From: Fomitopsis serialis
Taxonomy: Eukaryota > Basidiomycota > Agaricomycetes > Polyporales > Fomitopsidaceae
Direction of reading: 5' to 3'
Length of the DNA: 64,000 nucleotides
Assembly: GCF_022376445.1 (NCBI RefSeq)
Contig: NW_025955017.1
Location: 183,475-247,474, forward strand
The position numbers and the translations under genes are program-made. Numbering within the stretch: position 1 is the first letter of the stretch; each line of letters opens with the position of its first letter. The notes below the pieces were generated by a model, which saw nothing but the letters and a program-made list of their open reading frames with translations, made no database searches and had not been told where the DNA came from. Positions 40,333 to 64,000 of this stretch are shown one piece after another.

Positions 40333-43300
40333 CTAAATTGTGAGTTGATGCTTCGTCTCGTATTGTCGGACCAAACGAGATGCCCCGACGAGCAACTCAT
40401 CGCGAGTCAACCATTCCCGCTCGTGTTCCGGCATCCCTACGAAATTCACCAGATACCAGTGAACATCGTTTCCTGTCCGACGGTCGGTGCGTCGATCGTA
40501 GTCAACTATCTGATCAATTTCGTAGTGATTATCCTCGCCGTCCACCACAATTGGTGGTGGTATGGTTCGCTTGCGTTTCGAAAACTCGTCTGGCGAGTCC
40601 ACATATTTCTCAAGATATTCAGCATTTATAGCGTCGTGTATATCAAACTGCGGTGGTAGGTCCAGTATATAGGAATTGTTGTTCAGCTTCTCCTTGACAC
40701 GAAACGGGCCAATCCATTTTGGCAGTAACTTACGTGTTTTGCGCTTCTTCTGCCATGGAGGGTTCAAATGTTTTGTTGAAAGCTTGACCAACTCGCCGAC
40801 CTCGAATATGATCTCACGACGTTGAGAGTTAAAATGTTTCGCTTGATTCTCTTGGGCCCTGCTGATTGCGTCTTCTGCAGATCGAACCTGAGCATGAACA
40901 TGCTCAAGGAAGTCGTCAACCGCGGGCAAATGGTCACCATCGTTGTCGGTGATATTATGGAGAAAACGCGGCGCAAATCCGTAGTCCAATTCAAACGGAC
41001 TGAACCCAGTCGAGGCGTTTACACCCCGGTTGTAGGCGATCTCCAAAACGGGCAGTAAGTCAATCCAATTCTTCTGGTCATACTTGATATAGTGACGAAG
41101 CATATCCTTCAACACACGCACCATGCGTTCAGACTGGCCGTCTGTTTGAGGATGATTCGCAGTAGACATGGCAAGTTTCGTGCCAAGACGCTTGAACAGC
41201 GTGCGCCAAAATCGTGAGGTAAATTTTGAGTCCCTGTCGGATATTATCACCTGAGGTAAGCCATGTAGCCTTACGACCTCGCGAAAAAACGCCTGTGCGG
41301 TGTCTTCGGCTGTGTCCGATCTCTTGACTGGAATAAAGTGAGTATGTTTTGTCAGTTTGTCCACCACGATCATGATCATATCGAGTCCATTAGATGTTAC
41401 TGCAAATGGACCTGCGAAGTCCATAGTGACGGTGTGCCATCTGCCCGGCGCAATCATGTGGGGCAGTAGCAACCCAGCGGTCTTCTGATTCGATGATTTG
41501 TTTAGCTGACAGGACTCACAGGAACGAACGTAAGAACGTACGTCCTTGCTAAGTCGGGGCCAATAGTACGTATGACTAACCGCATTTAGTGTTCTGTCGG
41601 CACCCGCATGGCCCGATAGTTCGGCATCATGGAAATCATGTAGAATATCGAGTCGCAGGTCCTTATGTCGCGGAATGCATAGGACACGACCCTTCCCGGA
41701 GGAGTGTCGACGGAACAGTAGGCCATCCTCAACTTCATAGTTCTGAAGGTGAGCCCGTGGTTTGTCTTGCTCAAATAATTCCAATATTGGCGCGAAGTAT
41801 TCATCCTGCAGATATCCGTCTCGTATTTCCTTGAGAAAGGCGGATTTTGGTAACATCGTGGTAGCAGTTAACATCTCCGCGTCGGCTTGTGGTGCGGAGC
41901 CGGGTATCGGTGCACGCGAAAGTGCATCGACGTTCGAGTGAGATCGTCCTGGCCGATGTTCGATTCTCGCGGAATGTTGGTATGGAAGTAATTCGAGTGA
42001 CCATCGTTTAAGACGACTATTGGTCCCTTTGTAATTCCAGATCCATTGCAATGCAATATGATCCGTAACGATTTTAAGCTCAGATGTCCCATCTATGTAT
42101 GGATGAAACTTTCGTAAGGCCCAGACCACTGCCAGACATTCCAGCTCAGTCGCACTGTAACCCTCCTCTGCTGCAGATAACTGGCGAGAGATGGCGGCGA
42201 CCATGTGCTCCTTGCCGTCCTTACCTATCTGAGCTAATACACCACCAATGCCGATTTTGGATCCATCGGTGTATATTAGGAATGGTTGCTCGTAGTTTGG
42301 ATGGGCAAGTATGGGCTCTTCTGCCAGCCTTCCACGCAGCGTCTCGAAAGCTTCTTGGCATAGCGCCGACCATATGAATGGCGTCTCCTTCGACAGCAAT
42401 GCTGTCAGGGGACGTGCTATCTTAGCATAGTCGCGAATGAAGCGCCGATAATACCCAGTCATGCCCAAGAAGATCTGTACGTCCTTGACCGTTTTTGGGG
42501 CCGGAAACTGAAGGATTGCACGGACATTTTCTTCCTTCATGCCGATGCCCAAGCGACTGACATGATGTCCCAAGGCGTGTATTTCTTGGTAGCACACATG
42601 AGATTTAGTCAATGAAAGCGTGAAACCGGATGCTTCAATTCGATCCAGCACCTGCTCAAGGTGTTTAAGATGATGCTCAAGGTCGGCGGAATATACAACT
42701 ATATCATCAATGTAGACTACAGCGAACTTCCATTTAATCTTTCCCAGGACTTTGTCCATTGCACGTTGAAAGATCGACGGCCCATTTCGTATGCCGAACG
42801 GCATTCGTTTGTATTGGTAAAGTCCTTGATGAGTGCGAAACGCGGTCTTCTCGCGATCAGCCTCATCAGGGATGCCTATCTGGTGAAAGCCAGAATTAGC
42901 ATCAAAGGTAGAGAAGAATCGCTTACCTTCGAACTGATTTAGGTAGTCATCAATCCGAGGCAGTGGATATTGATCTGGCTTTGTGACTGCATTCAGCTTG
43001 CGAAAGTCTATGCAGAACCTGACCTTGTCCTTTTGTGCAATGAGCACAACGTTCGACGCCCAAGGCGACTCTGACTCTTCAATGACATCATCAGCGAGGA
43101 GCTTTGCTACTGTCTCCTCGATGATCTGTCGTCCTTTAGGGGACGCATGATACGGAGCAGTCGATATTGGAGGCGAATCCCCTGTCTCGAGCCGGACTTC
43201 ACCCACAGTCGTGTTGCCCAGCTTCCGTGAACCGTACGCGAACGCGTGTCGGTGTCGAGTCAGGACCTCAAGGACTTGTTCTCGCTCTTTGGGGTTAAGA

Positions 43301-44469
43301 CCAGGGTTGATATCTATATCAGTTAGTGCTCGGTGAAACTCTTGTAAGTCCTTCTTATCAACTATACTGGCCGTGTTGGACTCACTCACCCGAGACGTCT
43401 TGCTGACGTCTACTAACGGATGAATGGTACCGAGGATATCTCCGATGTATAGCGTCATCGGGAAAGGTTCCATGTTGACGACCTGCACATGATGTTGAGG
43501 CGAAGAAGACTTACCTATACTTTTTGCTGCCGAAATCGCCTTGAAGCCATCCTTCAAAGGTTCTGGTTCCAAGTAATATAGCGGTGCTGGGATTGGTCCT
43601 ATTATCTTCGCCGGGATTTGCGCGGAATGAAACGCTCTTACTGTGAACGTCTCTGCGACCCGCATTGTGGTCAACTGCTGTTTCCGACAGACCATACTCG
43701 TAACTATGTTCTTCCCGCCTTCGGCGCGGAGAACCAGCTGTTGATTTTGGAGGTTAACGACTGCATTGTAGAAGTCCAAAAAGTCGTTACCTAGTATGAT
43801 TCGAGAGTCCTGAGCAGGATTCATGTACAGCTTCGTGGGGAGAATATGGTTCTGTCCCTTTAGATCCGTAACAGTGAGATTGAGAGAGATGTACGAAGTG
43901 ATAAAGCTGTTACCGGAAACGCCATGTAGTTCTATAAGCGGGCATTGTTGTCTCACTGCCTGCGGCAGAAACTTCTGGAGTATCGAACGATCAATCAGCG
44001 ATATTGACGATCCTGTGTCTACCAGAGCCCGAAAAGCCCGGTCAGAGTTAGACCCATCGATCGCAACCTGTATAAAAGCTGGTGTCTTACTCATAAACGC
44101 GGAAGCGTCCGGCCCTGTGTCTTCATTTCCGCTTACGACTTCTGGAAGAGTTTGTTTATGAGTCGTCTTCTTCTGATCTGATAAGGTGCACTTTGTCGGC
44201 TGCTTCTTCTTCAGGACTCTCCTTTTGGGAGTAGTGCCTTGTATAGGAATACTAGTCTTGAGCGACTGACCTGCTGAGGAATCCGTGACATCGCGAACCA
44301 TTCGTCGAGTCATGATGGTGTTTGTATCGGCCACTAGGTACGCATTTGCCGAAAGGCTCGTAGCGTCCCCTTCTTCCTCTGAATCATACTGATCGTATGA
44401 TGTTTCTGCTTCGTCTTCTGGTTGCTCGTCTTCGGTGCACACCAGGCAGCGTCTTTGCCCTATAATCAT
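40333..44469 (-). mobile_element. Ty3/gypsy chromovirus Pol polyprotein (gag missing)
   Basis: A single 1378-codon frame without stops. In order: aspartic protease with VDTGSSISLID (about residue 150); reverse transcriptase with PLPRIDDYLNQF, HQGLYQYKRMPFGIRNGPS and the catalytic YIDDIVVYS (about 585); RNase H with LIYTDGSKIGIGG, ATELECLAVVWAL and TDHIALQWI; integrase with the HHCC zinc finger (SGHAGADRT ... CESCQLNK), catalytic Asp in TMDFAGPF, Asp in ISDRDSKF and Glu in TDGQSERMV; and a C-terminal chromodomain (HYEIDQIVDYD ... HWYLVNFVG ... REWLTRDEL). It is an intact, probably young fungal chromovirus Pol. No Gag with a CCHC knuckle lies upstream (beyond 44469), so the element is 5' truncated or rearranged. 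Confidence 0.95.
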
Positions 44470-49205: not shown

Positions 49206-49264
49206 CGCAGGTATCTGTATAGGTGCGTGCGCCGAAGGAAAAGGTGGCGATGCCGGACGGGAGG

Positions 49265-49640
49265 GAAGCGAGTCAAAGACCGGCGAGCGGGGAGGGGGAA
49301 GCGGGCAAAGATCGGCGAGCGAGGGGGAAGCGGAGCATAAAGCGGCGAGCGAGGAGGGGAAGCGGGCAAAAAGAGGTGACGAGGGGGGAGAGGTGACTGG
49401 GGGGGGGAAGCGGGCAAAAAGCGGCGACTGGGGGGGGAAGCGGGGCAAAAAGCGGCGAGCGAGGAGGGGAAGCGGAGCAAAAAGCGGCGAGCGGGGGGGG
49501 AAGCGGGCAAAAAGCGGCGACGAGGGGGGAAGCGGGGCAAAAAGCGGCGACTGAGGGGGAGCGGGGCAAAGATCGGCGAGCGGGGGTGCGGGTGCGGGGA
49601 AGGCGGGGCAAAGACCGGCGAAGGAGGATAAGCCGGCCGG
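49265..49640. repeat. G/A-rich minisatellite (about 25-30 bp unit)
   Basis: Repeats of the type GGGGGAAGCGGGCAAAAAGC with GGCGACGAG or GGCGAGCGAG spacers, about 12 copies. All three frames stay open on the minus strand, giving false Pro/Ser/Phe-rich open frames up to 253 codons. It sits in the promoter region of the chromodomain gene. Confidence 0.85.
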
Positions 49641-50723: not shown

Positions 50724-53685
50724 GTGGCTATGGACATTGAACGCTATGCGGCGCGTGCGCACGAATGGTGGAAGCCAAGTACGCCATCCCTTAGCGTCTT
50801 GATTCACTCGCTTACAAGCGCTTCAGAGACGGCCGTCGACCCGTCTCAACCAGCGCGGAGGGAGAAAGGCCCACTGCGGGACCCTCGGATGGTAAGGATT
50901 TGGTATTCATTACTCAGTCTTGCTAGAAACTTACAAGGGGCTGACTCCGCAGAGGTCGGCACCGCCACCAGTAAGAAGCGGACTCGGCCGATGGACTCAG
51001 CGCCGGTTGGCGAGGCGGCCGAGGGCGTGCAGGAGAAGAAGCGGAAGCGCATTAATGTTGTGAAGCCACCCGATGTCGTCAAGAGGGGGCAGGGGTTGGG
51101 GAAAGGCGGCAAGGCTGGGCTCAAGTCGAGGGCCCGCGTCGGCTCGGATGAAGAAGAGCCATTGGCAATGGCCGAGGGGATTCACGGCCGCCAGACAAAT
51201 GCGGGGAAGGGGGCCGCGGATCGCAAGGAGGCCGGGCCCTCCACAGCGCTAATGGAGGTCGACCGAGAGGAAGAGGTGGCGCGCGCCGACGGCAACGGGG
51301 GTACGGCGCCTCCTGTAAAGGCGCCTGTGTCGGTGCAAGTCAACGCTTACGAACTGGCCGAATCAAAGGCGAGGGTTGGGGACTTGATTCATCCGGTGAG
51401 TTGCGCCGCTTTCGGTTCACCAGCGGACCCTGATGATTTAGCCCGTGGAATGCGACCGCTGCCTCCACTTGGGCAAAACGTGCCTCTACGTTGTTGGGGC
51501 GCACAAGAGGAAGCCGACCCACAAGGTCGTGATGGCTCGCTGCACGGGCTGTCAGACAGCTAAATCGGCCTGTTCGCTCGTCCCGCGCCACATGCACGAC
51601 GGGCGTGTCTTCAAGAACAGCATCGCAGGGACGGCCGCCGCCGAATGGCGAATGTGGGTGGCCGACCGGAAGGCCCAGCGCCTACCATACCCGGACCTGC
51701 CGGTTTGGAATGGGATACAGGGGAAACCCGGTTCTTGGGTCGTCGACCTGGATACCTGGGACAATACGGATAAACGGGTCAGCGACAAGCTGATGGACTG
51801 GGTCGCCGTGCGTCGGTCCGCCTTAGCACGGGGCCAACTTATAGAGCCTCCCAAGCTGGACAGGAAAGGCGACACGGAGAGCGAGCCAGAGAGCGACGAG
51901 GAGGGTCACAAGGCCGAGCCAACTTCGAAGAAGCGGAGTGCCCGGAAGAAGGCGAAACTAGTCGGCCGAGGGATTTCGCCCGACAAGCCAATTGATCTCG
52001 ACGAGGACGCCGATGTGATCAATTTGATCGAAACGCCCGCGGACGAAACGGGTGGCGAAGGCGTCGTGCCTGTTCCCGAGGCGGTGAGTTTGCCCCAACA
52101 TCTTTTTGAACCAGTCCTCATGCCTCTCCGTAGCCGAAGCGCCCACCATCCCACGCCGCTGGGAAGAGACCGGCGTCTTCTCCGGAAGCAGCTCAGGCGC
52201 ACCAAGAGGACGACGTCATCTCGATCTCAGATGGTGACGAGCAGACTGACGCGTTCGCCGGGCTGATTAGAATGTCGCCCGTGCCATCATCTCCAAGCGC
52301 AGCCCACGCGGGCCCTCCCTGTCTGTGCCCCAGACGTCGGCCACGCCGTCGGTTCCCTCCCTGTCTGTGCCCCAGACGTCGGCTACGCCGTCGGTTCCCT
52401 CCCTGTCTGTGCCCCAGACGTCGGCCACGCCGTCGGTTCCCTCCCTGTCTGTGCCCCAGATCGGCCACGCCGTCGGTTCCCGCACCATTGAGTTTACAGG
52501 CAAGGCAGGAGGCGGAGGGTTACATCCGGTTCCTGGCGACGCAGGGTGTAGCTACGCCGCAGGCCTCATTCAATCCTGCCGACGCGTGGGCGAGTATCAT
52601 CCTCTTCCTCAAGTATGAGAGCGAGAGGCACGCAGTGCTGCAGGCGAGGGTCGAAGAGGTGGCCAATGGCCCAGCGCCGAGCACTGGTCCCACGTGGTCT
52701 GAGGTGGACAAGATACGCGACGAGTTGGCTCTCACAACGGGGGATATGGGGCAGCAAGTCAACCAGCTTCGCGAGGAAGTCAACCAGCTTCACGCGGAGA
52801 AGGCGCAGCTGGAGGGCGTCATTGCTGACATTTCAGCCGACATTGCGACGATGAGGAGTGGAGTCGAGCAGGCGTGCACACTGCGCAGCGACATAGACCT
52901 TGTCAAGGGGGGACACTCCAGGCGATGGATTTGACTCTGGAACGCGTTCGAGAGATCGAAATCAAAATTCGCGACGACATTAATCGCGTGGTCAGAGTGC
53001 CCTCGGCTCCGCTGAGCCCTCTGACTCCAGTGCGCCTCCTAACATCACCACCGTCCCCCACCGCTTCCGAGGGCGCGGAATCCGTTATTTTCGCCCCTCT
53101 TCCAGACTCGATCCCCCGTCCAGCTGACGAGAACAAAGCCCACGACACGCTCTCCCTCCCGCACCGGGCTCGCTACTTCCGCCGTTGCCAGAAGTTGACG
53201 AGCCAGTCGAAGACGCAGCCCCCACATATAAGAGGGCGCTGCCGGCAAGCCGGATCTCAGCAGGCGCAGCGCCTGGCTGGAATAGGCCCACGGGCTGGGC
53301 CATGAGATCCCCCGCCGCCGTCGCCTATTTGTCGGGTTCGGCGTCTCTCCCAGAGAGACCGCGCACACTTTCCCCCGTATCTCTGAGTGTTGAGCAACCC
53401 GACGTTGCAAACGGCCGTACGCGCACGGCATCTACCTCCTCAGCAGCGCGGGCCACCGCTCAGGAACAAACGGAGCTCGACGCGTTGTGGAGGCGCGGAA
53501 AGCCGCGAGGTCATCCAATCGCCCCTCTACTCGGTGGTCCGACGTATAACGCTCAGGGCTCAGGAAGGAAGCGCCCCCGAACCGGCGAGATCGACGAAGA
53601 GAGCGACCAGCTGGCCTCCGAGTCCGAGAGCAAGACGGCGCCCGATAATCAGGCTGGGGAGGAATTGATGGACCAGGGGGAATAA
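50724..53685 (+). CDS. Large disordered protein with Zn2Cys6-like cysteine pair
   Basis: Exon 1 (to 51395) is Lys/Arg- and Pro-rich with nuclear-signal-like KKRKR. An intron 51396-51441 joins it to PVECDRCLHLGKTC and, 19 residues on, CTGCQTAKSAC. Each is C-x2-C-x6-C, the spacing of a Gal4-type Zn2Cys6 cluster but with a longer middle loop. Then follow ordered segments (AEWRMWVADRKAQRLPYPDL, WVVDLDTW), acidic and Lys-rich stretches, a second intron 52084-52130, a 42-bp repeat region, a coiled coil (GQQVNQLREEVNQLHAEKAQ) and a Ser/Pro-rich tail ending at 53685. Frame changes near the repeat and at about 52915 and 53190 suggest indels. It may be a transcription-factor-like protein. Because a LINE reverse-transcriptase remnant follows directly, it could instead be the ORF1 of that element. 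Function unproven. Confidence 0.55.
52313..52485 (+). repeat. 42-bp coding minisatellite, about four copies
   Basis: The unit CCCTCCCTGTCTGTGCCCCA plus GACGTCGGCCACGCCGTCGGTT is repeated four times, the last with a 2-base deletion. One frame gives the 14-residue repeat PSLSVPQTSATPSV, but the frame continuous with both flanks gives Cys/Arg-rich text instead. Confidence 0.9.
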
Positions 53686-58415: not shown

Positions 58416-58424
58416 GATGGATCC
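58416..58424. repeat. Target-site duplication, left copy
   Basis: GATGGATCC, identical to 63955-63963 and directly abutting the inverted repeat. Confidence 0.8.
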
Positions 58425-58558
58425 TAGTCTCGAACCCGCCTCTCACGGACACCCTAAAAGGGAACCCGTCCGTGAGAGTCTGGACGAGAACGAGCGCCCT
58501 AGGGGACCTTTGCGTCTCGCGACTCGCGGGGGCGCTTCACTCACTCGCGCGTCGCGTC
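58425..58558. repeat. Left terminal inverted repeat (134 bp)
   Basis: Pairs with 63819-63954. The two differ by a one-base run-length change (GGGG versus GGGGG) and a small change near position 103. It contains an 11-bp hairpin, CTCTCACGGAC (58440-58450) with GTCCGTGAGAG (58468-58478). Confidence 0.93.
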
Positions 58559-58633
58559 TCTCGCCTTTGAGGCTCGCGCGAGCGTACAATCTCGACCTTG
58601 GCTACATATCTTCCACTAGACTGCAATAAATCA

Positions 58634-61471
58634 TGCCGTTATCCTATCTTACTCGATCTGTGCGAAATACCGGCTATCTGACACTCGTTGACGACTCGGA
58701 TGAGCCCGAAGCATTGAGCTCTATTGCCGAGTTCGTCACCACCAGTGGAGGCGATTGAGGTCGATGACCTGCCGCCGGAGCCTTTCGGTACACTGCCGGA
58801 CTTCCCAGAGGATGACGAAGGAGACCTGAGCTATGTACCAAGCCATGGTCTTCCTGCGCGGCGCCGCAGTGACGAGGAGAAGGCGTTCGCAGTACTGAAA
58901 TTCATGCGGGAGAACCTCCCGCTTTTCACTTCGTACATTCCTCATGACGCTGTTCTCCTCGAACTCCGGAGGTATCAAGAACTATGTGAATACATGGAAG
59001 GGCAATGGTGGAATCCCGGAGCTGCTGGAAGTGCTCTGGTCGATGTCTGGACTGCGGGACGAGGACGTATGCAGCTGGGTCGCAGAGAGAGCAGCGAAGA
59101 TATGTGCACGGGAGGCAGGCTGGCTCACAGACAGAGCTGCGGAAGGACCGCATACTGTGTATGCTGAACGACTTCGCTCGCCAGCGACAACCGTGTCTGT
59201 CGCACAGCTGAAGTCCTTCCGAATCGAGGACCTCACGGCAGCGTATTCCAAGACTATGCCTCGGACTCGGATGATCATGAAGGCAATCATCAACAAGGAG
59301 AACACAGCGAGGGATAGCGAAAGCCGGAATCCAGACGATGTGCGTGTGTTTCGGGCCTAGCTGTTTAGACCTGTGCTTACAGAGTATTGCATATAGGGGT
59401 GCACATTGGCGACATCGATACTGTTGAATCTGCGTAGCCAGAAGTCCAACGTACATCAGGTCATCAATAGCATGATCCTATGGATAACCGTGCACCGAAG
59501 CGCCTCGTCCAGATGCTGAATCGCTTCGGTGTCTCTGTGTCTTATGATCACCTATGTACCTCTATCCTGGTGCTCTCGGCGAACGCACTTCGCATCGCAC
59601 GCAAGATCGCCAACGACCCCCGAAATATGATCATGCTGCCATACGACAATTTCAACTGGGTCTCCGGTGTGTGGGAGACATCAGTTCTCCACGGTGCTGT
59701 ACAGCATGACCAGGTATCCGCGATGGTCATCAGCCTCACCCTTCCTGAAAGTGGGACCGCACATCGCCTCGCAAGTGTTGAGCGTTTCGAAGCATGCCGT
59801 GGGACTCGTCACCGGCTGCCTGCACAGACAGCCTTGCAGGACATTGTGCCGAGTGAAGCAGACCATACTGCCTTCCGTGACGCAGCTATCAGCCATGTCA
59901 TGATGATTCTGGTGGACGAGGTTGCGGGATTTGCGGGTTTCCGTGCAAGTGTTCCAGGGCTTGTTGACCCCGATGCGATTCCCGTACGCAAGACCGATCG
60001 CCATTACCTACCGACGTTCGACCAAGAGCAAGGGTCGACACGCGGCAACATGGCCGTGTTGAAACACTATTTCATCGATGTACTGCAGATCCCTAAAGCA
60101 GTCTTCGAAGATACAATGTTCTTCGTTCTTGGGACCGGCTCACAACTGCACGCGATCGGGCAGCGCAGGACCAAAGAGGAGTCGATCGCTCCGATTTCAG
60201 GGCGGACCACCTCTCAAGCCTCGCTATGACGAGTGGGCTTATGCATGTATGCTTCAACTTCATCCAGGCATGTGCCAAAAACCTTTGGGGCGGAGCAAAC
60301 AGGGACACAACGAGCCTTCAGACACTCCGTGATTTGCTCCGAAACCGGAGCGAGATCAATATCCAGAAATTCGACTTCTATGCATGGCTGCGTTTCTTGG
60401 ATTGTGTCCTACGAGCACTCGTGATTTCCGCTGCAGTCTCAACCCTCGCTCAAGGACACGACAGAGCTCTCCTCGCAGAGACCAACAGCAGCCGAATTCC
60501 GGACCATGTGCGAGACGATCGTCGATACATATGTCATGTCTTCACCAGATCGTCTTGAGGCCGACGGAATCAAGTCGGTCAAGGGAAACACGACCTCGGG
60601 CCATGCTGCACTCACAATGTTTGATCTCATGACACTACGAGAGATGCGTCATGCTATCAAGCACGGACATCCGACTCGGATCCTACGGATCCTCAAATTC
60701 TGGACACCCATGTTCTATGCAGGGCGAAGCTACAATTATGCCCACGAATGCATGGAATTACTGCACAACCTGATACATGACTGGCCAGAGGATACCGCCA
60801 AAGTCCTCTTAGCCAGCATGCTCGTCAATACAACTGGTGAGCCTGATGGCTTTCTCGAGGCAGATCTGGACGTCGAACACCTCAATTTACGCATCAAGAA
60901 CCGCGCGCATGGCACGAATGCCACACCCGAGATGCTCTGCAAAGTCACACCATCACTTGGTCACGTAAGGGACTTGACAGATCGTGTGTACAAGGAGACA
61001 GGTGTGCGCGACGTGAATGAACACCATGCCAAGGTGCAGCAACATACCGACATCCGGCTCCTTGCGAATCACCTTGTCACGTCGCACGCACTGTCATTCG
61101 CTCTCGACCAGGTGTCTGAGCATGCCATCACCGATCTCTTTCGAACTGGCCTTCATCAACTGGCCGGCCCACATGGCGGCCATGCGAAGCACCTTCTCCG
61201 ACACCGTCTTCGACTCCGTTCTCGTCATGCAGATGAATCACATGGGGACACGCACCCGGAGAACTCTGTCGAAGACATCACAGAGGCGGAAAATGAACTG
61301 GCAAATGCCGAAGATACATTGGACGGAGCCGAAGTCATGTTGCACACTCACAGCGACAATGGTCCGATTAACGGCTTCGAACACGCGCAGGAGAACGAAC
61401 TCGTGGATCTGATAAGAGCAGGAGAGAATGGATTGAGGTCAGGTAGTCCATACAATGATTATGAAGCGTAG
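58634..61471 (+). CDS. DUF6589-type protein of a mobile element
   Basis: A long basidiomycete protein read in pieces across one clear intron (59342-59399) and several one-base frame changes. The N-terminus is acidic (EAIEVDDLPPEPFGTLPDFP). Then come TFLMTLFSSNSGGIKNYVNT, RTRMIMKAIINKENTARDSE, APKRLVQMLNRFGVSVSYDH, LPYDNFNWVSGVWETSVLHG, QHDQVSAMVISLTLPE, YLPTFDQEQGSTRGNMAVLK, DTMFFVLG, LSSLAMTSGLMHVCFNFI, RNRSEINIQKFDFYAWLRFL, CETIVDTYVMSSPDRLEADG, MREMRHAIKHGHP-like text, MFYAGRSYNYAHECMELLHN, DLDVEHLNLRIKNRAHGTNA and LAGPHGGHAKHLLRHRLRLR, and an acidic tail to 61471. This order matches the DUF6589 family as I recall it. Repeated Asp/Glu-bearing motifs (YDNFNW, VLGD-like, DLDVEHL) could form a nuclease centre; this is only a suggestion. 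Frame breaks at about 58919, 59482, 60129 and 60450 lie mostly in base runs. Confidence 0.75.
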
Positions 61472-61548
61472 GGAACGGCAGACCGTCACGGTCTGCGGGT
61501 GACTACACTAGCTCGAGCTTTCGTAGCACCGGCTGATTGTCCGTCACT

Positions 61549-63645
61549 CTAGTGTCCTGCGAATTTCGACTTAGTCCTGAATGTATCATCAATAAAAAGG
61601 TCATGCTCACCATGTGTTTCGTCATGGCCTGTCCCAGTATCACCCACTGCACGAAGAGCTGCCTGGATAGCGTCGAAGAGCGGCTCCGCCAAATCATCCC
61701 AGTGGATGATATGTGTCAACGGGTACAGGTCGTCAACTCGCCGAATAGCACCTGCATGGTCGGCGACGGCCTCGAGATCCTTGTCCGAGATGAGCGATTT
61801 TGGGCCGTACAATGGCCAGCGGGAGCGCCATCGCTCGCGCCACTCGTTGTCCCGCCAATCCTGCAGACGTGCGAGCACCGTCTGCTTCGCATTTGTGGAC
61901 ATTTGGCGCTCCGCGCGCCGCGACTCGTCTTCTGCGGGATTGACCATCACGAACTCGAACTCGCGCGGAGGGATGAGCTGGGGGTAGCAATTGGAGCAGC
62001 AGAGACGACGTGGTACTAGATGGGCACTATCAGATGGGCGTGGGGGTTCTCGAGGTAATGATCAAAGACGGAGTCGCAGCAGCGCTCTGTCTGGACCAAC
62101 TCGATTATCCCAGGGTCCTCATGGCCAGGCTTCTGCGGACTCAATTTGCCTCCGCGCTCGAACTTCTTCTCTGCAATGAAATAGCCTACTGCAGTCATGC
62201 CGGGGCTTCTCGCACCACGCCCACGGCGCTGGTCCGCTTTTGCCATAGTGAGACCACTGCAGAGGTACTGGATGACTCGCTTTACCAACGGAAAATTCAT
62301 GCCTGCGCCAAGCTTTTCGGTCGACAAGAGTATCCGCGTCCGTCCTGTTTTGAAGTCTGCTAGTGCTCGACTCTGATGGTCCGGAGATAGGCCGGCGTGC
62401 AGGATGTCGACCGCACTTCCGGGAAGGGAGAGGTCCTCGAGCTTCTGTCGGAACCAATAGAGCATTTCGGTGAGCAGTGTTGTGTCATCACAATAGACAA
62501 TTGACTTGTCCAGGTCTGCGAGTGACTGTCCCCCACGCGGCAACACAAATCGGAGGTCCTTGAAGCTCTTCACATCGTGCTCCATGTGTATGACAACTGT
62601 CGAGAGCTCCGGACGGAAGTTTCCGATGTTGAAGAGGATGTAATCATCCTTCATTCCCACATGCGCAGTGAGTGACGCCCGATACAGCGCAGGCAGAGTA
62701 GCCGACATGGCGATCAATGGGGTCATACTACCCACAGTCGTTCGCAGCTGATGCATCCGGCCATACGCAGGACGCCAAGTGTCCGACTCGTGAACGCAAT
62801 GCGCTTCGTCGATGAAGATCGCGACGAGCTGGCGCTTGTACCACTCGGAGTACAGGATCTGCGCAAACACGGGCGACTCCAGCATCTCGACGCAGACGTA
62901 GGTCACGCGATAAAAGCCACTCGCAACCTGTTCAAGGGTTGCTGAGTCCTTGCGGCCTGCATGTATGAACACCGACGGGATACCCAGTGTGTTCGTCCTG
63001 TGATCGCAGTGACATGAACAAACGGTTATAACATAAGCAGATGTGTGCGGACTCACTGATTCTGACCTTCCTCTCCGAGGCTCGTAAAAGGTGTGATAAC
63101 GAGGACTACACCGCGATCCAGAGTAAGGAGCGGGAGAGTCCATAGGAGAGACTTGCCGAAGCCGGTCGGTGCAATCACGCAGATGTCCCCACTGCGAGCG
63201 AGAATTGCATTGGAGCACTCCATTTGAAGCTCTTTGACCTCTCCCTCGAGCGGGATAGCTTTTGCACCGCGAGCAAGCATGCTCCACTGTGTTCTCAGGA
63301 GTGGGTGGTCGGATTGATCTTGGGCGGAAGATCGCACTCGAATGCGAAGGCCTGGCGCCGACGCCGTCCTGGAGCGTTGAGAGAGTATGGTTTGTAGGGA
63401 GGGGGTTTCTCTTTGAGAACGTAGCCATTGCGGTAGAGAGCGTGGTGATTCTTGGCCTTCGAGGCGAGTGGTGATATGCGACCCGGCGAGTCGGAAGGAC
63501 TGCCCCTCGACTGCTCACGAGCAAGAGACTGGCCACTGGCCTGAACATGGCGGGTTGGCGAGTGAGGTGTAAGGAGCTGGCATTGGTCGACGAGCCTGTC
63601 AATGGTGTACGTGGGCATGTGTGGATTGCGAGTCCTGCTCAGCAC
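61549..63645 (-). CDS. RecQ-type DEAH helicase of the TIR element
   Basis: SF2 helicase read leftwards. The N-terminal exon frame holds the Walker A motif IAPTGFGKSLLWTLPLL (about 63160). The intron 62998-63056 splits a Gln codon. After it come GIPSVFIHAGRKDSAT, YVCVEMLESPVFAQI, motif II IFIDEAHCVHE, motif III MSATLPA, KSIVYCDDTTLLTEML, ILHAGLSPDHQSRALADFKT, STEKLGAGMNFPLVKRVIQY and motif VI DQRRGRGARSP. The C-terminal part (from about 61990) has a Cys cluster (LCCSNC) and a tail with WRDNEWRERWRSRWPLYGP, stop at 61549-61551. A frame change is needed near 62025 and probably near 63330. The upstream start (63645 or 63337) is undecided. It resembles the RecQ-like genes that are multi-copy in basidiomycete genomes. 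Confidence 0.85.
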
Positions 63646-63818
63646 GACGACGCTTGCGAGGTGGAGGCCATACTGCAGCTTGCATTTTACAGCTCCGAAG
63701 AGCTCTAAACGCGTAGAAAGACAGCCACGCGGGTTTCCGGAGACAAACGAATGGATTGCAGTTAAAGAAGGGTATTATACATCGCGCCGCACACGCAGGA
63801 GAGCGCGATGGTACAGGC

Positions 63819-63954
63819 GACGCGACGCGCGAGTGAGTGAAGCGCCCGCCGCGAGTCGCGAGACGCAAAGGTCCCCCTAGGGCGCTCGTTCTCGTCCAGA
63901 CTCTCACGGACGGGTTCCCTTTTAGGGTGTCCGTGAGAGGCGGGTTCGAGACTA
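63819..63954. repeat. Right terminal inverted repeat (136 bp)
   Basis: Reverse complement of 58425-58558, with the same internal hairpin (63901-63911 with 63929-63939). It lies within 180 bases of the helicase start and probably contains its promoter. Confidence 0.93.
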
Positions 63955-63963
63955 GATGGATCC
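63955..63963. repeat. Target-site duplication, right copy
   Basis: GATGGATCC directly after the TIR terminus GTTCGAGACTA. Identical to 58416-58424. Confidence 0.8.
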
Positions 63964-64000
63964 GAAGGCTGCGCCGACGATAAAAGCGCGAGTGCGGCAC

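Follow-up and report, generated by a model that had tools for sequence, protein, structure and literature searches.

A recently mobile DNA transposon with DUF6589 and RecQ-type helicase genes in Fomitopsis serialis, probably of the AcademH kind

In this work, we show that the 5,530-bp element at positions 58425-63954 of the window (the whole stretch of 64,000 nucleotides of Fomitopsis serialis DNA that was analysed) is a real, recently mobile DNA transposon, and that its two genes, encoding a DUF6589 protein and a RecQ-type helicase, are transposon machinery. The element is likely to be an autonomous AcademH-type DNA transposon, in which DUF6589 would serve as the transposase and the RecQ helicase as its partner. 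The features of the element are as follows.

58416..58424, no strand: left target-site duplication GATGGATCC (sequence)
58425..58560, plus strand: left terminal inverted repeat (TIR), start TAGTCTCG (inverted-repeat analysis, BLAST)
58435..58483, no strand: palindrome in the left TIR, arms 58435-58450 and 58468-58483, 88% complementary (inverted-repeat analysis, folding)
58633..59339, plus strand: putative DUF6589 exon 1, deduced from the C235 copy (237 codons there); the window frame is broken by small deletions
59340..59396, plus strand: putative DUF6589 intron (GT-AG)
59397..61471, plus strand: DUF6589 exon 2 including the stop; proposed transposase, with a YDN motif at 59642 and an E motif at 60869
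59480-60229 and 60506-61471, plus strand: frames holding the PF20231 match in two pieces (Pfam)
61549..62997, minus strand: exon 2 of the RecQ-type helicase, with DEAH and Helicase_C; the window frames are broken, and the C235 copy has its stop about 75 bases further inward
62998..63056, minus strand: putative helicase intron (GT-AG)
63057..63337, minus strand: predicted first part of the helicase, Walker A (GFGKS) (frames, Pfam)
63819..63954, minus strand: right TIR, end CGAGACTA (inverted-repeat analysis, BLAST)
63896..63944, no strand: palindrome in the right TIR (inverted-repeat analysis, folding)
63955..63963, no strand: right target-site duplication GATGGATCC (sequence)

A sequence-only reading of this DNA had claimed nearly identical TIRs that end at a perfect 9-bp direct repeat, and both parts of this claim were confirmed. 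The TIRs of about 136 bp gave 98.5% identity over 137 positions with 2 gap openings by BLAST, the inverted-repeat analysis resolved the arms into pieces of 82 nt (100%), 31 nt (97%) and 29 nt (100%), and the element is bounded on both sides by the perfect 9-bp duplication. The inverted repeats are far beyond chance. When the 28-base terminus was searched for in the 66.2 Mb genome with up to 3 mismatches, it was found at 12 places, all of them ends of element copies or of two miniature copies, and the reversed control gave none. Between the TIRs, the DUF6589 gene (plus strand) and the DEAD/Helicase_C helicase gene (minus strand) are convergent, with one intron per gene placed by GT-AG signals, not by transcripts. 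The protein families named in the same reading also stood, DUF6589 and DEAD/Helicase_C by Pfam and RecQ by PDB matches, the best match of the helicase being 4tmu RecQ (E 1.7e-11), followed by RECQ5 and WRN; in the frames scanned for domains, none besides DUF6589 and the helicase domains was found. The 77 bases given for the distance between the convergent stops hold for the window copy; in the C235 copy the distance is 151.

The insertion seen in the window (contig C523) is present on three further contigs, C390, C674 and C235. The C390 copy is 100% identical to the window over 6,500 bp and the C674 copy over the shared 2,853 bp, and the C235 copy is 99.7% identical, with 2 mismatches and 16 gap openings; these four copies are probably haplotypes or assembly duplicates. 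Contigs C523 and C390, identical over the 6.5 kb compared, both end 37 bases beyond the right duplication (window 63964-64000), which looks like an assembly duplication broken at the element. The copy on C556 is a separate insertion, 99.66% identical, with different flanks and its own duplication CGTACACGT. In both C235 and C556 the element is 5,545 bp long, and the window copy lacks 15 bases present there, in 12 one- or two-base deletions that break both gene frames, and has zero substitutions of its own relative to these two copies. Since C235 and C556 keep the 15 bases and an open DUF6589 frame (exon 2 reads through 692 aa in both), we read the broken frames of the window as probable assembly deletions. 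The helicase frame is 631 aa long in C235, where one base near 62041 differs from that in C556 and the window; in the latter two the frame stops early near this position.

Elsewhere in the window, a 1,378-aa open frame at 40333-44469 (minus strand) represents the coding region of a Ty3-type LTR retrotransposon with protease, reverse transcriptase, RNase H, integrase and chromo domains. Tandem arrays were observed at 52313-52481 (42-bp unit, 4.1 copies, 96% matches) and, purine-rich with units of about 30 bp, at 49263-49586.

The window and C556 insertions, with different flanks and each with its own 9-bp duplication, bear out the claim that the element is a DNA transposon, as do empty sites at two loci. 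Joined flanks of four insertion sites were used to search the genome for empty sites. For the C556 insertion, an exact empty site was found at C540:7338-7837, matching 500/500 bases with a single copy of the 9 bp, and for a relative of the element on C124 another lies at C467:4747-5091 (345 bases at 100%, query 156-500, spanning the junction). The joined flanks of a C4 insertion were spanned only by diverged copies (84 and 82% identity), and the search gave no empty site for the insertion of the window itself. Among the 19 distinct insertions with both ends read, the duplication was 9 bp in 11, 10 bp in two (both C4 elements) and 8 bp in three (C632, C52 and C94); no exact duplication was found at the remaining three (C54, C77 and C17/C46), both ends having been read. 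These 19 comprise 14 DUF6589-bearing elements and the short ones on C2, C54, C34 (one), C94 and C17/C46, the last pair counted once as its flanks are common. The sequence-only reading had held that a lack of duplications or of empty sites at other copies would speak against its proposal; the search revealed other copies and duplications as well as exact empty sites at two loci. Two miniature elements of about 100 bp (C2:355535-355637 and C54:36490-36584) hold little beyond the ends of the window element, the C2 one (103 bp) flanked by a 9-bp duplication of its own, GGGGAGCGG, the C54 one by none.

The association of the two genes was surveyed across the genome. The PF20231 search gave 93 hits, merged to 47 places, and the element's own helicase as a query gave 38 hits at 36 places. 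From 29 of these places, DUF6589 is no more than 10 kb away, with about 1.5% expected; of the 141 Helicase_C hits, 29 are near DUF6589 and 112 elsewhere. A helicase hit within 10 kb (Helicase_C together with four own-helicase places) accompanies 34 of the 47 DUF6589 places, several of which are assembly duplicates and hence not all independent. Among the 13 without a helicase, five start at most 2.3 kb from the contig start (C150, C264, C444, C49, C674), two consist of the last exon only (C279, C710), and the other six (C163, C23:75420, C62, C623:81712, C778, C801) have no explanation. All 14 DUF6589-bearing elements with both ends read (window, C556, two on C4, C124, C34, C632, C64, C156, C1, C48, C52, C162, C77) enclose a helicase hit, and exact 8-10 bp duplications were found in 13 of them, C77 being the exception. 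The gene order within the pairs is convergent or divergent. Because the pairing inside TIR-bounded elements is systematic, DUF6589 and RecQ are transposon machinery; the proposal that they form the content of one transposon type thus held good for the genome studied, where they are constant in many such elements, and the survey of their co-occurrence between TIRs that had been suggested gave the counts above. A further DUF6589 group, divergent and marked by the motif GDGLTFER, was also observed (C556:82406, C49:831, C501:226775 and C23:75420; loci L037-L040). Helicase hits lie beside its C556 and C501 members; the C49 member, at a contig start, and the C23:75420 member have none up to 10 kb away.

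The ends of these elements were located in two ways. Those of the window, C556, two C4, C124, C34 and C632 elements came from repeats and duplications, not from TAG patterns; those of C64, C156, C77, C1, C48, C52 and C162 and of the short elements were found by TAG patterns, so that their TAG start is by construction. The C124, C34 and C632 elements are 71-79% alike in the aligned coding pieces and 70-91% with the ends included. The left ends of C64, C156 and C77 fell within small stretches predicted from the C124 geometry; that of C1 lay outside and was located later by pattern. The pattern TAGNCTCGN{3,8}CCAGYC proved unspecific as a sole end marker (48 hits vs. 26 in the reversed control) and was dropped in this role; pattern matches were used only as inverted pairs, most of which flanked a known gene pair or had a duplication of their own.

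AcademH, of the Academ superfamily, was reportedly described by Kojima in 2020 (Mob DNA 11:15). In print, AcademH comprises helicase-encoding DNA transposons of animals and fungi with duplications of 9 or 10 bp (PMC10045372), is low-copy in Basidiomycota, Ascomycota and Mucoromycota and has DEAD and Helicase_C domains (PMC10799480); non-autonomous Academ elements are reported for Marasmius oreades (PMC8290104). Shared with AcademH are a DNA transposon bounded by TIRs, a helicase of the DEAD/Helicase_C type, duplications of 9 or 10 bp and occurrence in fungi; the difference lies in the 8-bp duplications, which make up 3 of the 16 exact ones. Since the helicase gene and the 9-10 bp duplications match the AcademH description, the element, judged by this analogy, probably belongs to AcademH, and its kind is therefore probably already known. 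The label "candidate new" given to it in the sequence-only reading is not supported, AcademH being in print with a helicase and 9 or 10 bp duplications (PMC10045372, PMC10799480).

It is unlikely that the DUF6589/RecQ elements form a separate, undescribed superfamily merely resembling AcademH. Such a superfamily would account for the absence of a match between DUF6589 and any other Pfam family, for the two genes being separate and facing each other or away, and for the occurrence of 8-bp duplications; yet the DEAD/Helicase_C helicase, the duplication length and the fungal range agree with the published account of AcademH. Very unlikely is the explanation in which DUF6589 and RecQ serve as cargo, or as a partner of another kind, and the transposase is encoded elsewhere. 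Short elements with the same ends have no room for genes, such as that on C2 (103 bp, own 9-bp duplication), and must therefore be moved in trans, as this explanation would have it; against it, both genes recur in 14/14 elements, across divergent families and different gene orders, and no other domain was found in the scanned frames.

Kolobok elements target TTAA, which was present at none of the 16 exact duplications. Mutator-like elements (MULEs) have long TIRs and duplications of about 9 bp, as has the window element, which differs in its helicase partner and in having no MULE domain: 11 DUF6589 proteins searched against Pfam at E up to 5 gave neither this domain nor any other DDE family or known transposase domain. 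In fungi, KolobokH carries a RecQ helicase, which lies downstream of the transposase domain (PMC9587614), a likeness to the present fungal DNA transposon, but the DUF6589/RecQ elements have 8-10 bp duplications and convergent or divergent genes. Taken together, a KolobokH or Mutator-like identity of the element is hardly credible, and we return to the AcademH-type reading.

In this reading, the DUF6589 protein is most likely the transposase. It comprises about 929 residues if the exon 1 (237 codons) and exon 2 (692 aa) of C235 are spliced as proposed. In the numbering of exon 2 of the C235 copy, the invariant residues among the 11 open frames aligned include D84, N85, G246, D247, G281, H284 and Y449, at only 17-25% identity between the window family and the frames of ten other loci. 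The DN is kept in all 23 script-aligned loci, and the GD is invariant among the matches listed. A strict pattern placed a D...E[HLN] motif in an N..G context at 17 of the 30 loci, duplicates among them (18 at the face value of the regular expression, L039 looking spurious), leaving 13 in which this strict pattern gave no E motif. The E of 'KYAxE', considered as the third acidic residue, was dropped in favour of that in D...E[H], as it is missing in some members. In C235 the presumed acidic residues are D84, D247 and E495, with spacings of 163 and 248 residues, the first (D1-D2) being long, and the Pfam DUF6589 match begins at residue 144, downstream of the first acidic motif. The motif arrangement agrees with that of a DDE transposase in which a long insertion precedes the E; DDE catalysis is presumed. 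According to PMC9587614, a C/DxxH between the second D and the last E is a signature of hAT/P/MuDR/Kolobok/Dada; DUF6589 has an invariant GxxH (G281, H284) 34-37 residues after D247, where G replaces C or D, and no sequence match to these families is detectable. For the single pair that was usable, dN/dS was low (0.23/1.85); in the other five pairs dS was saturated (4.8) or not computable. A PDB profile search with DUF6589 gave nothing convincing (two matches, E 1.3 only), and a scan of viral_contigs and genome_contigs with the DUF6589 alignment revealed no relative. None of the 5.39 million papers searched names DUF6589, and no link between it and Academ appeared among the matches listed; its role as a transposase is possibly new.

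Many ends carry, beginning 11-16 bases inside, an inverted pair of about 10-20 bases. When 14 termini, the two window-family ends among them being near copies of each other, were folded as DNA, at most 2 of 200 shuffles were as stable in 12 of the 14. The right ends of C64, C156, C1 and C77 had been preselected by a hairpin scan that required an inverted match of at least 8 and are therefore not independent support; without these four the count was 8/10. Weaker folds were obtained for the C4 right end (9/200 shuffles as stable) and the C632 left end (18/200), and the left ends of C1 and C48, folded without shuffles, also fold weakly. Among the control windows, 4 of 42 were at z -1.7 or lower, the lowest being -3.5. 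The two ends of one element may hold different stems, both pairing (C4, C124, C52), and compensatory pairs were few (3/25 in four ends, 1/21 in three). Either a dimer that binds two sites in inverted orientation or recognition of a hairpin may explain the palindromes; that the stems can differ between the left and right end of an element inclines us weakly towards recognition of structure. Palindromes near the ends, kept paired while their sequence changes, may be new. A literature search on palindromic ends gave nothing about AcademH among the matches listed.

According to the proposed mechanism, DUF6589 would recognise the ends by their 5'-TAG start and the palindrome some 11-16 bases in, excise the element and join it to the target DNA, where strand breaks staggered by 9 bp (by 8 or 10 in certain relatives) would give rise to the duplication. 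The RecQ helicase, a partner from the same element, would most likely unwind or remodel the palindromic ends or the strand-transfer intermediate. We infer movement by cut-and-paste rather than by copying, the helicase's step and a place within AcademH by descent. As a doubtful but distinct extension, the ends might be recognised as structures, RecQ opening them so that hairpins or cruciforms form on which DUF6589 acts, in a DDE-type system unlike ordinary cut-and-paste.

In the genome studied, DUF6589 genes and their RecQ neighbours should count as genes of transposons and not of the host, and a Pfam family of unknown function gains a likely role. The element is a recently mobile transposon with exact empty sites, and through its palindromic ends it makes the part played by a helicase in eukaryotic DNA transposition open to test. 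If the structural recognition of the ends were true, transposition by DUF6589/RecQ would be of the DDE type, with structure guiding the recognition of the ends.
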